From Halopiger aswanensis (GTDB lineage Archaea > Halobacteriota > Halobacteria > Halobacteriales > Natrialbaceae), in assembly GCF_003610195.1 (NCBI RefSeq), contig NZ_RAPO01000001.1, positions 186,001 through 250,000 on the forward strand: DNA of 64,000 nucleotides, read 5' to 3'. Shown here piece by piece: positions 10,502 through 43,498 of the stretch. Position 1 is the first letter of the stretch. Each line of letters starts with the position of its first letter. A program made the translations under genes and the position numbers. Below the pieces are notes generated by a model. The model was not told the DNA's origin, ran no database searches, and saw only the letters and a list, made by a program, of their open reading frames with translations.

Positions 10502-11245
10502 ATGGCACAATTTACCGACGACGACATCGGCAAAGACGTCGTCAACGCACACGGCGACAAGGTCGGGATCGTCGCGGACGTCGAGCACGGCACCGCACAC
10601 GTCGAACCGGACCCGGGGATTACGGACACCATCAAGGCGACGCTCGGCTGGGGTGGCGCCGACGAGGACGCCTACCCGCTCCAGGAGGAGGCGGTCGCGC
10701 GGGTTACCGACGACGAAATCCGCCTCGAGAGCGACCTCGAGCGATCCGGGAGCCAGACTGGATCCGAGACGGGGATGGGAGCAGGAACGGCCGGAACAAC
10801 CGACACCACCGGAACAGGGGGCACGGATGCGGACGATGTCCAATCCAATACGACCGGGTCTCCGGGGTCCAGCGACCTCGAATCCGGACCGGCCGGAACG
10901 GCTGACACGGATACTGGAACGGACACCGGCACCGGCACTGGCACCGATTCCGGCATCACCGACGACGACGGACTGATGGGCGACGATGATGACGACGACG
11001 GCCTGATCGGCGACAATAACGATGATGACGGGCTCATCGGTGACGACGAGAGCCGCCGGAGCGACGAAGGGCGGCGACGGAACGATGACGACGAACTCAT
11101 CGGCGACGACAACGACGACGGCCTGATGAGCGACGACGATGACAGCGACCTGATCGGCGACGATAACGACGATGACGGGCTCATGAGCGACGACGACGAT
11201 GACGACGATCACATCGGCGACAGCGGCAACACGACCACTCGCTGA
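10502..11245 (+). CDS. PRC-barrel domain protein with long Asp-rich repeat tail
   Basis: A 247-residue protein in two unlike halves. Residues 1-80 form a PRC-barrel-like domain: DIGKDVVNAHGDKVGIVADV, then PDPGITDTIKATLGWG and a YPLQ motif, as seen in small haloarchaeal PRC-barrel proteins. From about residue 82 a Gly/Ser/Thr-rich linker begins. From about residue 155 to the end the chain is a degenerate repeat whose core is GLIGDD or GLMSDD followed by runs of Asp and Asn. Ligand and role are unknown. The tail could chelate cations or stay disordered in high salt. The gene converges on the Gln-rich gene at 11372-12646. Confidence 0.75.
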   Translation: MAQFTDDDIGKDVVNAHGDKVGIVADVEHGTAHVEPDPGITDTIKATLGWGGADEDAYPLQEEAVARVTDDEIRLESDLERSGSQTGSETGMGAGTAGTTDTTGTGGTDADDVQSNTTGSPGSSDLESGPAGTADTDTGTDTGTGTGTDSGITDDDGLMGDDDDDDGLIGDNNDDDGLIGDDESRRSDEGRRRNDDDELIGDDNDDGLMSDDDDSDLIGDDNDDDGLMSDDDDDDDHIGDSGNTTTR

Positions 11246-11284
11246 GCCGGTCCGTGATCCGGTCGCCCCGGGCCGAGTGCTACC

Positions 11285-11289
11285 TTTTT
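11285..11289 (+). terminator. T-tract after the PRC-barrel gene
   Basis: A T5 run in GC-rich DNA, 40 bases past the stop at 11245 and between two convergent genes. Archaeal polymerase terminates at such runs; no stem precedes it. Confidence 0.3.
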
Positions 11290-11371
11290 CCGCTAACTGA
11301 CCGATAGCCACCGGCGTAGTCCGCTCTCGAGGACGGCGAAAAATCGATCTGCTCCCCGTCTGAGTCGCCCG

Positions 11372-12646
11372 TTACTCCTCTCGTGCGTTGCTCTCGCTCT
11401 GCTCTTGGTAGTCGCTTCCGGTGTCGGCGTCTCGTCCTCGCCGCCGCTCGCTCGAGGGCTCGTGTGCCCCCCCAGAGCGCTCGCTGGTCCGATCCTCGCG
11501 GTTGCGGTTTTGGCTGCGATCCTGGCTGTCGCGGTCCTGCTCGTGTTCCATTCGAGTCGCGTCGATCCCGCGGTCGGTCGCCTCCGGGCCCCGTTGAGTC
11601 TGGGTCGGTTGCTGGTTCATCGCCCGTCGTTGGCCGGCGCGCTGTAGGCCCCGACTCGAGTTCGAACCGCCGGTTCCGCTGTCGATCCGCTGTGAGGGTT
11701 GGTCTCGAGACTGGTCGGGTGATTGCTGGCGACGCTGTCCGTGCTGCGTTTGCTGGCCGCGCTGGTCGTACTGGGGGTGCTGGCTTTGCTGACCGCGACC
11801 CTGCTGTGGGGAGCTCCGTCCGGCGGGGTGTCCCGACTGGTCGTTTCGCTGTTCCGGTCGCCGTTCCTGATCGCGGCGGGTGGTCGATTGCCCCGAGGAC
11901 TGGGCCTCCTGCATGCGGTGTTCGGGGCTGGTCGCGCTGGCGGATTCCCCGCCGTAGGTCATCCCCTGATTTTGGTGAGGCTGTGGCTGCGATCGTGGCT
12001 GTGACTGCCCCTGATCGATCCACTCACCCGTTTGCGGGTAGGCCTCCATCGGCTGCTGGGACTGCCGTTGCTGTGGTTGCCGTCCGCTCTGGTGGCGTGC
12101 TCGCTCGGTGTGTTGGTCAGTAGTCGACCGAGCACCCATCTCGGGTGACGGCTGTTGACGGCCCATCTGTGTGCTCTGGCCCTCCATCGACGGCCGCTGT
12201 TCGCTCCGTTGTGTCCGGCGCGTCGGCGGTGTTTGCGCTTGCGCTTGTTGCTGGGCCTGAGGCTGGGGCTGAGACTGGAACTGGGGCTGTGGCTGTAGCT
12301 GGGTCCCCGATTGAGACTGCGAACCCGCCTGTGCGGCCATTCCCGCCGCGGCACCCCGCTCGAGCGCGCGTTCCATCTCCGGCGCCATCGCCTCCATCCC
12401 CTGCAGGTAGCTCTCGAGCATCGACCGCGTGAACTCCTGGCCCGGAACCTGATCCAGCATCGATTGGGTCATCTCCATGCCTTGCTCCTGTGCGGTCTGT
12501 TGCCACTGCAGCGCGCTCAGGGTCATCTGGGCCATGCTTCGCTGGAGGTTCAGCAGTTGCTCGAGGGCCTCCTGTCCCTGATTCATCGTCGTTCGTTGCA
12601 TCTGTGTGGTCGGGTCCGTGCTGGAGTTGGATTGCTGGTCTGTCAT
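11372..12646 (-). CDS. very Gln-rich low-complexity protein with phasin-like helical N-terminus
   Basis: A protein of 424 residues if read from the ATG at 12646 (MTDQQSN). Residues about 20-100 are a predicted helical segment, EALEQLLNLQRSMAQMTLSA and onward, with regularly spaced hydrophobics that resembles polyhydroxyalkanoate phasins or other coiled-coil proteins. The remaining roughly 320 residues are dominated by Gln, Ser, Arg and Pro with almost no hydrophobic residues. A haloarchaeal protein with so few acidic residues and such a basic, Gln-rich body is unusual. A longer frame reaches 12748, but its first 34 residues lack character and cover the probable promoter. No homologous function is recognised; granule coating or condensate formation is only a hypothesis. 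Confidence 0.65.
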   Translation of the reverse strand: MTDQQSNSSTDPTTQMQRTTMNQGQEALEQLLNLQRSMAQMTLSALQWQQTAQEQGMEMTQSMLDQVPGQEFTRSMLESYLQGMEAMAPEMERALERGAAAGMAAQAGSQSQSGTQLQPQPQFQSQPQPQAQQQAQAQTPPTRRTQRSEQRPSMEGQSTQMGRQQPSPEMGARSTTDQHTERARHQSGRQPQQRQSQQPMEAYPQTGEWIDQGQSQPRSQPQPHQNQGMTYGGESASATSPEHRMQEAQSSGQSTTRRDQERRPEQRNDQSGHPAGRSSPQQGRGQQSQHPQYDQRGQQTQHGQRRQQSPDQSRDQPSQRIDSGTGGSNSSRGLQRAGQRRAMNQQPTQTQRGPEATDRGIDATRMEHEQDRDSQDRSQNRNREDRTSERSGGAHEPSSERRRGRDADTGSDYQEQSESNAREE

Positions 12647-13062
12647 TGGTTGGCTCCGTCGCGTAAGGATACGCTCCGCTCGCACTGTGAGGATCCGGCT
12701 AGGACGGCTATCGGCGCTGTGCCGTCGCGCTGACGGTGTAGCGCTCACCTATCACCGTCGCTGCCGTCCCCTCGACGCCCGCCGACCCGCAGTCGTCCTG
12801 GGCGACGGAGCAGTCAATAAAGGTCGCCGTCGGTTCCAGTCGGGTAGCACGAGGCCAACCGTTCGAAACGATCGGAAACGGTGATTCCCCACGGCCAGCG
12901 AGGGTGAATCCTACTCGAGTTCTGCGGGAGTAATCAGCTCCAGTTCGAGCGTGAACGGATGCTTAGTGTGGTAACAGCAGCTTAGCGGTCGCCGAAGCCA
13001 GATGGCGTCTCGTGCAACACCCGATGGATCTCTCCCTGACGGTCTCGAGACCAGCTGGTACC
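12647..13062. other. 416-base gap upstream of the Gln-rich gene
   Basis: A small inverted repeat, GCGTA-AGGA-TACGC at 12661-12674, lies 15 bases before the ATG at 12646 on the minus strand and contains a TATA-like TATCCTTAC for that strand. Around 12910-12970 the minus strand reads a short sensible-looking tail (HPFTLELELITPAELE then stop) without any start, which may be the remnant of an acidic protein. Nothing else is recognised. Confidence 0.35.
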
Positions 13063-13902
13063 TTACGACTCGGAGTTCGGCTCGCCGAACGATTTCCCCT
13101 CCCGCTCGTCGGCGCGGCGGCGCCGCAGCGCCGCCCGCGCGTTGGAAGCTTCGTAGCCGAACAGGACGCCGTCACCGTACGCCTCGGCCACCTCGAGGGC
13201 GTGAATCAGGTCGTCGACATCGACGTTTACCGCGTACAACTCGATATTGAACGGCGTCTCGAGCGCGCTCTCGAAGCCCTTCGCGATGGTCTCGAGCCAA
13301 TAGGTCGTCCCGTAGTGCGTGTCGTACAGCGGGACGACGAACTCGTCGACTAAGTCTTCGAGGGCCTCGAGATCGAGCCCGGCCCGCTCGTAGAGGTGGC
13401 CGGGATAGGGGTCCGGATAGAGCGTCATGTAGGTCTTCCCGGGGATGCGGTCGACCGCCTCCTCGACGAACTCGGTGACGACGCTGGCGCGCCACTCGAG
13501 GCGGTCGTCGTACTCGCTCGCCTCGAACGCCTGCTCGCAGACGCCGCAGTGACAGTACTCAGCCCGCGGGAAGCCGACGTCGTCGAGCCGGACGTCCTCG
13601 TTGGCCGCGACGCAGTCGTCGATGATCTCGAGCAGTCCCTCGCGGTAGTCGGTGCGGGTGGGACAGACGTAGTCCCAGTCGAACTGCGGGCGGTCGCGCG
13701 TCGCCGGTCGGCCGAAGTCGTCGACGGGGACGAGCGACGGATCGGCGTCCGCCGCGGCGTTGTCGGCGAAACACGAGACCATGTTGATCCCGTCGTCGAT
13801 CGGTTCGGCGGACCGGCCGGTCACGTCCTTGACTTCGTAGAATCCGCGGTCGAACTCCGGCCACCGGACTTCTTCGGCGTTTCGGGTGACGACGCCGTAC
13901 AT
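13063..13902 (-). CDS. conserved TIM-barrel-like protein, possibly glycosidase-related
   Basis: A 279-residue soluble protein without a signal peptide. The middle carries LDDVGFPRAEYCHCGVCEQA; an LDxxxFP strand followed by a C-x-C-x2-C group is often seen in uncharacterised TIM-barrel proteins related to glycoside hydrolases. Later segments YMTLYPDPYPGHLY and VVPLYDTHYGTTYW would form further barrel strands with aromatic and acidic residues at their ends. No catalytic pair can be named with confidence. The C-terminus is a short charged tail. Neighbours give no clue, and the gene appears to be transcribed alone. Confidence 0.6.
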   Translation of the reverse strand: MYGVVTRNAEEVRWPEFDRGFYEVKDVTGRSAEPIDDGINMVSCFADNAAADADPSLVPVDDFGRPATRDRPQFDWDYVCPTRTDYREGLLEIIDDCVAANEDVRLDDVGFPRAEYCHCGVCEQAFEASEYDDRLEWRASVVTEFVEEAVDRIPGKTYMTLYPDPYPGHLYERAGLDLEALEDLVDEFVVPLYDTHYGTTYWLETIAKGFESALETPFNIELYAVNVDVDDLIHALEVAEAYGDGVLFGYEASNARAALRRRRADEREGKSFGEPNSES

Positions 13903-42176: not shown

Positions 42177-42481
42177 CCGGTCCGCTTCTCTCCGTCGGTC
42201 GTCGTTCGTCGATCCGATCACCGTCGATCGCACCTGATCGTTGTCGAACCGGCTGATCGCCGTTCATCGCGTTTTCCGGTACTCGGTACTCTCGATAGCG
42301 ACGGCGTCTCGTCTCGGATCTCCGCGGCCCGTTCGCCGTCGATGCATCTCTCCACTGGATACCATCTAATACCTCTCAGGACCATGCAAGGGTCCCGCTT
42401 ATCCGTGTGTGAGTGTTCCGTTCGGATAGGAAGCGGCGACGAGGGGTCCGGCCCGCCTCGTCACCGAACTCAGTGATACCC
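42177..42481. other. 305-base gap
   Basis: No gene is recognised. A short direct repeat of GATCG-containing words around 42210-42260 and a TATA-like CGCTTATCC near 42394 are the only notable items; the latter is about 80 bases before the next ATG. A T-poor, GC-rich composition speaks against an AT-rich foreign insertion. Confidence 0.35.
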
Positions 42482-43498
42482 ATGACTAACGCAACCACGC
42501 CCATCGAAGCCACGTTCGAACTGCAGCGCCAGTCGATCAAACAGAGCCAGCAGCTGTTCGAGCGCGGACTCGAGATGCAGGAGAACGCGACCGAGACGGT
42601 CCTCCGGAACGGAATCGCGGCGCAGCGAAGCGCCCAGCGCCAGGGGACCGAACTCGCCCGCCAACTCTTCGACGCCCAGCTCGAGGCGTTCGAGACGGCG
42701 ATGGACGAGGACGGATACGACGTCCGTTCGACGATCGATCAGCAGTTCGAGGACAACGCGGCCCAGACGCAGGAACTGCTGAACGAGGGATTCGAACAGA
42801 GCGCCGACCTGTTTCGACACCTGCTGAACGCGCAGCTCGACGCGATCGAGTCGACGCTCGAGGGAGACGGACAGGACGTGCGAGCGGCCGTCGACGAGCA
42901 GTTCGACGAGTTCGAACGCACGCAGGACGAAGCCTGGAACGAGTTCGAGTCGGAGTTCCTCGAGGCGTTCGACGACCTGACCGAGCAACAGCAAACGGTC
43001 GTCGCCGAGTCGATCGAGTCGGTTCTCGAAACCCACCGGGAGACCGAGCAGCAGGTAGTCGAGGGCGCTCAGCTCGCGGAGGAGGCCACCGAGAACGTCC
43101 AGCAGCAGACCGAGCAGGCTACCGAAACCATCCAGCAGCAGTCCGAACAGGTCGCCGCGACCGTGCAGACGGCCCAGCAGGGGACCGAAGACGCCGTCGA
43201 AACAACCCAGGAGGGTGCTCAGGACCTCGTCGGTGAAGCGGCCGAAGCGGCCGAGGACACGGCGTCGGACACGACCGACGCGATCGAAACCGCGGCCGAA
43301 GGCGGGACCGAAGTCGTCGAAGAGAGCCTGCAGTCGATCGAAGGCGTCGGCCAGGTGTACGCCGACCGCCTCGCCGAGGCGGGTATCGAAACGATCACCG
43401 ACCTCGCGGAGGCGGACGCACACACCGTCGCTAGCACCGCGGAAATCTCGGAAGAGAACGCCGAGGAGTGGATCGACGCGGCGCAGACGCAGGGGTAA
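42482..43498 (+). CDS. phasin-like coiled-coil protein with C-terminal helix-hairpin-helix
   Basis: A 338-residue acidic, almost purely helical protein. Residues 1-235 are amphipathic heptad-like helices with many Gln and Glu and a 52-residue internal repeat: AQLEAFET at 65-72 recurs as AQLDAIES at 117-124, each followed by a GYDVRSTIDQQFEDN-like segment. The Gln-rich stretch 205-245 resembles a bacterial phasin or apolipoprotein-like coil. Residues 284-336 are a helix-hairpin-helix domain (IEGVGQVYADRLAEAGIETI, AEISEENAEEWID) like those in DUF4332 proteins. Phasins coat polyhydroxyalkanoate granules; the HhH tail could contact DNA or protein. Function is inferred only from layout. Confidence 0.7.
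   Translation: MTNATTPIEATFELQRQSIKQSQQLFERGLEMQENATETVLRNGIAAQRSAQRQGTELARQLFDAQLEAFETAMDEDGYDVRSTIDQQFEDNAAQTQELLNEGFEQSADLFRHLLNAQLDAIESTLEGDGQDVRAAVDEQFDEFERTQDEAWNEFESEFLEAFDDLTEQQQTVVAESIESVLETHRETEQQVVEGAQLAEEATENVQQQTEQATETIQQQSEQVAATVQTAQQGTEDAVETTQEGAQDLVGEAAEAAEDTASDTTDAIETAAEGGTEVVEESLQSIEGVGQVYADRLAEAGIETITDLAEADAHTVASTAEISEENAEEWIDAAQTQG

Follow-up and report, generated by a model that had tools for sequence, protein, structure and literature searches.

A Gln-rich protein of the Natrialbaceae with a PhaP-related head: a putative accessory phasin

Introduction

Two convergent genes for proteins of extreme composition lie side by side in the genome of a Natrialbaceae-type haloarchaeon (Halopiger aswanensis; 4.87 Mb in 17 contigs), within a stretch of 64,000 nucleotides that was analysed as a whole and is referred to here as the window. 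One product ends in Asp-rich repeats and the other is dominated by Gln. The locus raises the question of what the Gln-rich protein does, and whether its convergent neighbour is a partner or simply a gene that shares its site. A preliminary description of the DNA had proposed that an Asp-tailed PRC-barrel protein and a basic, Gln-rich protein, opposite in charge, might form a charge-complementary pair or a condensate, possibly at storage granules. The Gln-rich protein is here called Q and its neighbour the PRC protein.

Layout of the locus

The gene order is Bat-type HTH / PRC / Q / unnamed / pyrI / pyrB, and the convergent pair is present as previously described. The genes of immediate interest are as follows.

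10502–11245, plus strand: PRC neighbour gene, 247 aa; core at 10502–10747, T/G/S-rich linker, Asp-repeat tail at 10967–11242
11372–12646, minus strand: Q gene, Gln-rich phasin-like protein of 424 aa from the ATG at 12646
13063–13902, minus strand: flanking unnamed gene, co-directional with Q, serving as the locus marker and present in 117/117 family genomes

An alternative upstream GTG start would extend Q to 458 aa. Q was found in 48 of the 107 Natrialbaceae loci inspected, always at the same site next to the unnamed gene. The unnamed gene encodes a protein of 279 aa which shows mostly 65–96% identity across the 117 genomes and has no match in Pfam or NCBIfam; many genomes carry a second copy, about 40–46% identical.

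Composition and charge of Q

Q can be divided into two parts.

12332–12646, minus strand: phasin-like helical head, residues 1–105, with homology to PhaP and helices predicted at 12–64 and 71–110
11375–12316, minus strand: low-complexity Gln/Arg/Ser/Gly/Pro tail, residues 111–424, almost without hydrophobic residues

The whole protein is 21% Gln, against a gene median of 2.2% in a background consisting of 664 genes of the window and of the relatives' loci, rather than of the proteome. The tail, at 314 residues, bears out the stretch of some 320 residues dominated by Gln, Ser, Arg and Pro that had been described earlier: it contains 22% Gln, 13% Arg, 12% Ser, 9% Gly and 8% Pro, while Ile, Leu, Val, Met, Phe, Trp and Cys together account for under 5%. 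Searches of Q against Pfam, NCBIfam and PHROGs returned a weak Nop match alone (E 0.1).

The supposed basic character of Q did not survive calculation. From the ATG at 12646 the protein has a net charge of −5 and a pI of 6.1, the head contributing −8 and the tail +3. Across 46 intact orthologues the median net charge is −11 and the median pI 5.25, with a pI above 7 in only two; the tail alone has a median net charge of −2. Since Q is near-neutral to acidic rather than basic, the opposite charge attributed to the pair is not shown. Q is unusual by virtue of its Gln content, not of positive charge.

The head of Q is related to PhaP

Used as a single query, the Q protein of the window finds relatives at E values of 6e-6 to 7e-4 in five genomes without an orthologue at the locus. 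Four of these relatives (at L062, L063, L064 and L065, from other families) directly adjoin phaE-phaC, PhaE and PhaC having been identified by PF09712 and TIGR01836 at L062 and by similarity at the other loci. The fifth, at L066, is an orphan in one Natrialbaceae genome. In profile–profile comparisons the Q head matched three PhaP-type proteins with a probability of 97.7% and a set of 24 PhaPs with a probability of 97.0% (score 65), while the controls (PhaE, reversed PhaP, reversed head and PRC) scored 10–14 with probabilities near 0.3% or less. The homology is restricted to the N-terminal segment, residues about 13–96, where Q and PhaP share the pattern QR....Q.Q close to the beginning of the segment, with SY..GmEA..PE closing it. 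At the level of sequence comparison, common ancestry of the N-terminal 100 or so residues of Q with haloarchaeal PhaP is established.

The AlphaFold2 model of the head consists of two long helices, at modest confidence (pLDDT 65), and the mean hydrophobic moment is 0.32, versus 0.19 for shuffled sequences. A phasin-type amphipathic helical segment is thereby predicted for the head. Q has no match to the Pfam phasin families (such as PF09361 and PF09602), and a haloarchaeal PhaP from a pha cluster likewise falls below the cut-off, with 15.6 bits for PF09361 against the 24.9 required. Profile searches of the PDB with the Q head, and with the PRC core, gave nothing significant. In a scan of 391 genomes from the order, matches with E below 1e-15, counted as strong, came from the Natrialbaceae alone; outside this family the scan yielded only weaker matches, with E values of 1e-6 to 3e-12.

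Two further observations concern phasin-type genes. The window holds a second one at 42413–43498 (plus strand, ATG at 42482), whose PhaP-like head matches the genome's PhaP at E 1e-9 in a two-sequence comparison and whose C-terminal helix-hairpin-helix resembles that found at the C-terminus of haloarchaeal PhaC; the product is possibly another PHA-granule protein. Meanwhile, the PhaP of genome G041 (L063:8957–9589) contains the stretch LLYTSLMAXAPSEMCIRDR, which resembles translated sequencing-adapter sequence; the assembly is therefore probably faulty there.

Conserved motifs in the tail

Three short motifs stand out within the low-complexity tail, which otherwise evolves fast.

12017–12037, minus strand: tail motif PQTGEWI/V, residues 204–210, conserved
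11945–11956, minus strand: tail motif YGGE, residues 231–234, conserved
11681–11701, minus strand: tail motif xxSQRID, residues 316–322, conserved

In most relatives YGGE follows PQTGEWI/V within a few residues; in the Q of the window a local insertion sets the two further apart. Columns of the motifs are 63–100% conserved among 46 aligned Q proteins, with T at 91, G at 100, E at 91 and W at 96% in PQTGEWV, values which the few misplaced N-termini in the alignment could only have lowered. The composition of the tail suggests that it is disordered. Conserved islands in disordered tails are usually binding sites, and the motifs of Q may be read in this way. The TGEWV–YGGE block, searched against 117 genomes, recovered only Q tails and two marginal matches elsewhere (E 0.026 and 0.037); its occurrence in other proteins was rejected, none of the matches being convincing.

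Promoter-like element and regulation

Upstream of Q lies a further conserved feature.

12817–12837, minus strand: promoter-like element of Q, GGAAC[C/T]GACG-N4-C[C/T]TTTAT (BRE/TATA-like), conserved, its TATA-like box at 12817–12823

Of the 48 Q copies, 46 have this element, or one closely similar to it, upstream. A wider regulon sharing it was considered and rejected, as 12817–12837 is the sole exact match in the genome. Several Natrinema-type genomes have an inverted repeat, GAGGATC ... GATCCTC, between the TATA-like box and the Q start, which may be a site for a regulator; in the window only the GATCCTC half is present, at −49.

The phaR gene has upstream sequences of a different kind. At L096 and L226–L245 a conserved repeat, ATGGTAT..AGATGGTATCTAGTGGAAA, stands before a CTTAT TATA-like box upstream of phaR. 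The [A/T]GGTAT repeat occurs in 19 of 21 phaR upstream regions versus 2 of 48 Q upstream regions, and is a candidate PhaR operator. PhaR-type control of Q was rejected because the phaR upstream element is absent before Q, which would be regulated apart from PhaR.

Association with polyhydroxyalkanoate genes

The host genome carries a pha cluster consisting of phaJ, phaR, phaP, phaE and phaC together with a phaB-like reductase, at about C1:630–635 kb. The full phaJRPEC cluster is present in all 20 Q-bearing genomes inspected for it, the host included, and it is also complete in G001, a genome of the same genus from which Q has been lost. PhaC is encoded in 48/48 Q-bearing genomes and Q in 0/19 genomes without PhaC, while Q is absent from about half of the PhaC-bearing genomes of the family. 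An independent-pairs test of the association counted one pair in the same direction and none in the opposite one, which is not significant and carries no power. Co-loss with PhaC was accordingly set aside as proof of function, being suggestive but drawn from too few independent events.

Q lies outside the phaJ-R-P-E-C cluster, and the genome's own PhaP sits inside it; because cluster position and promoter differ, Q is not classed as a PhaP. The granules of Haloferax mediterranei have PhaP as their main structural protein (PMC10948481), and the six granule-associated proteins reported for that species include none resembling Q (PMC4823750). Among the 391 genomes scanned the Q type was found in the Natrialbaceae alone, which qualifies this absence.

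The reading preferred here, to which a probability of about 0.6 is assigned, is that Q is an accessory phasin-like protein of the Natrialbaceae which binds polyhydroxyalkanoate (PHA) granules through its head and offers a docking site on its tail. By analogy with phasins, the head, with its two amphipathic helices, would sit at the granule surface, and the soluble tail of about 300 residues would project from it, holding granules apart in the manner of a brush. The TGEWV/YGGE and SQRID motifs would then serve as docking sites for a partner. The Q gene is a dispensable one, equipped with its own promoter-like element in place of the one preceding phaR, and the convergent Asp-tailed PRC-barrel gene is judged to encode a separate protein, a locus-mate by conserved gene order and no charge partner. 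The earlier suggestion of a location at storage granules is in this respect strengthened for the Gln-rich protein, through the homology of its head to PhaP, with the granule site itself being predicted.

An alternative is that the PhaP superfamily supplies a general-purpose amphipathic or coiled-coil module, and that the head is one which in this branch serves some other surface or assembly (a membrane, a gas vesicle or a protein scaffold), the tail acting in the cytoplasm in a role unrelated to PHA. The distance of Q from the pha genes and its separate promoter-like element are in keeping with this, as is the lack of phylogenetic significance in the co-occurrence with PhaC. Head paralogues also occur in other architectures, as exemplified by 42413–43498, but the helix-hairpin-helix of that paralogue is common to PhaC itself. 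Furthermore, four of the five relatives from genomes without a locus orthologue are pha-cluster PhaPs, and Q is missing from every PhaC-less genome. Use of the head at another surface or assembly is considered unlikely, though it deserves to be kept in mind.

The PRC neighbour and the question of a charge pair

The tail of the PRC protein matches the earlier estimate of some 90 residues, comprising 92 residues of which 39 (42%) are Asp. It is built from units of the form D-(x)-L-I/M-G/S-D-D. These number from 0 to 13 per sampled PRC orthologue, with at least two in 64 of 94, and their copy number changes fast. The full-length protein of the window has no Pfam match; 13 of 15 relatives give weak, sub-threshold matches to Pfam PRC, the best at E 7.5e-4. 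In the model of the fold formed by residues 1–80 (pLDDT 71), Foldseek recognises RimM (E 9e-4) and Archaeoglobus fulgidus PRC1/PRC2 (E 2e-3), and also matches CdpB1/CdpB2 structures. The PRC-barrel label is thus backed by the predicted fold together with the weak Pfam matches of the relatives. The host genome contains several PRC-like genes, that of the window being one.

In 45 of the 48 Q-bearing loci the PRC gene is adjacent to Q, the exceptions being G011, G016 and G066. In 40 other genomes, however, the PRC gene and the unnamed gene lie no more than 1.6 kb apart and Q is missing from between them, and the adjacency is therefore attributable to a fixed gene order. Hence the pair is indeed conserved in position, as the preliminary description required, but this follows from the locus rather than from a tie between the two proteins.

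This bears directly on the proposal that the Asp-tailed PRC protein and Q form a charge-complementary pair or a condensate. In its favour stands the convergent adjacency of the two genes. Q is near-neutral to acidic, and its charge does not co-vary significantly with that of the PRC protein across genomes (Spearman 0.20, p 0.17, with some Q starts misplaced). The PRC tail has a median of 62 Asp residues in Q-lacking genomes versus 44 in Q-bearing ones (p 0.007, uncorrected for relatedness), and in G001, where Q has been deleted, the PRC protein is retained with a longer Asp tail. The molar internal salt of haloarchaea would, moreover, screen plain charge attraction. On the basis of the orthologue charges, the lack of co-variation and the sites empty of Q, charge pairing was rejected, and a pair or condensate of this kind is regarded as highly improbable.

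Coding status and loss of Q

In 13 close pairs of Q genes dN/dS ranges from 0 to 0.31 for the head and from 0.29 to 0.85 for the tail. On comparative grounds, namely the orthologues, these ratios and the conserved promoter-like element, Q is a true coding frame.

In G001 a gap of about 262 bp at the position of Q holds 89 nt with 81% identity to the last Q codons, and the gene has therefore been deleted there. A second relic, of 74 nt, was found in G130. On a tree of the two flanking proteins the presence of Q needs 14 changes, at least 8 of them on supported branches, and the Q-bearing genomes include the deep branches G011, G016 and G066. The tree alone cannot separate gain from loss, and the simplest account would be that Q is old in the Natrialbaceae and has been lost repeatedly. 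Two orthologues apparently broken by frameshift, at L058:9028–10536 (G028, broken in the tail) and L137 (G068, broken in the head), are consistent with repeated loss, unless they are assembly errors.

The view that Q is no functional gene but a spurious or decaying low-complexity open reading frame can scarcely be credited, since its patchy presence, the two relics, the out-of-frame tail of G028 and the broken head of G068 have to be set against 48 orthologues over deep branches, dN/dS of at most 0.31 in the head and below 1 in the tail in 13/13 pairs, the conserved tail motifs and the widely retained promoter-like element.

Comparison with known systems and significance

Q resembles the PhaP encoded by the Haloferax mediterranei phaJ-phaR-phaP-phaE-phaC cluster (PMC10948481, PMC4823750) in its homologous helical N-terminus with predicted amphipathic helices and in its occurrence in genomes encoding PHA synthase. 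It differs in its location outside the pha cluster, with a promoter-like element of its own, and in having, instead of the acidic helical C-terminal half of PhaP, a tail of about 300 Gln/Arg/Ser-rich residues with private motifs.

In outline only, Q also recalls a second type of phasin, PhaF, by its combination of an amphipathic granule-binding helix with a long disordered part. The tail of PhaF is basic in character, unlike that of Q, which is near-neutral and Gln-rich (median net charge −2, n=46). In Pseudomonas putida the disordered part of PhaF binds DNA (PMC5658603). No sequence relation of Q to PhaF was found, Q being without a Pfam phasin match. It is conceivable, if rather doubtful, that Q is a separately evolved archaeal counterpart of PhaF-like tethers, in which a PhaP-derived head carries a Gln-rich disordered tail, and the TGEWV/YGGE motif of the latter recruits a specific partner and so organises or partitions the granules.

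The PRC neighbour, for its part, is like RimM, A. fulgidus PRC1/PRC2 and CdpB1/CdpB2 in the predicted fold of residues 1–80, but departs from all of them in its Asp-repeat tail and in its position beside a Bat-type HTH gene and Q/unnamed/pyrI/pyrB. Its likeness to CdpB-type proteins, which act in archaeal cell division with SepF/CdpA, is one of fold.

In the open papers searched, no description was found of an archaeal protein combining a phasin head with a long disordered tail, and the haloarchaeal phasin which that literature names is PhaP. If the assignment of Q to granules is true, genera with PHA synthase such as Natrinema and Haloterrigena would possess a second, patchily kept granule protein. 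It would also furnish a concrete short motif with which a partner might be fished out, and a test case for the behaviour of a Gln-rich disordered tail in a cytoplasm of molar salt.
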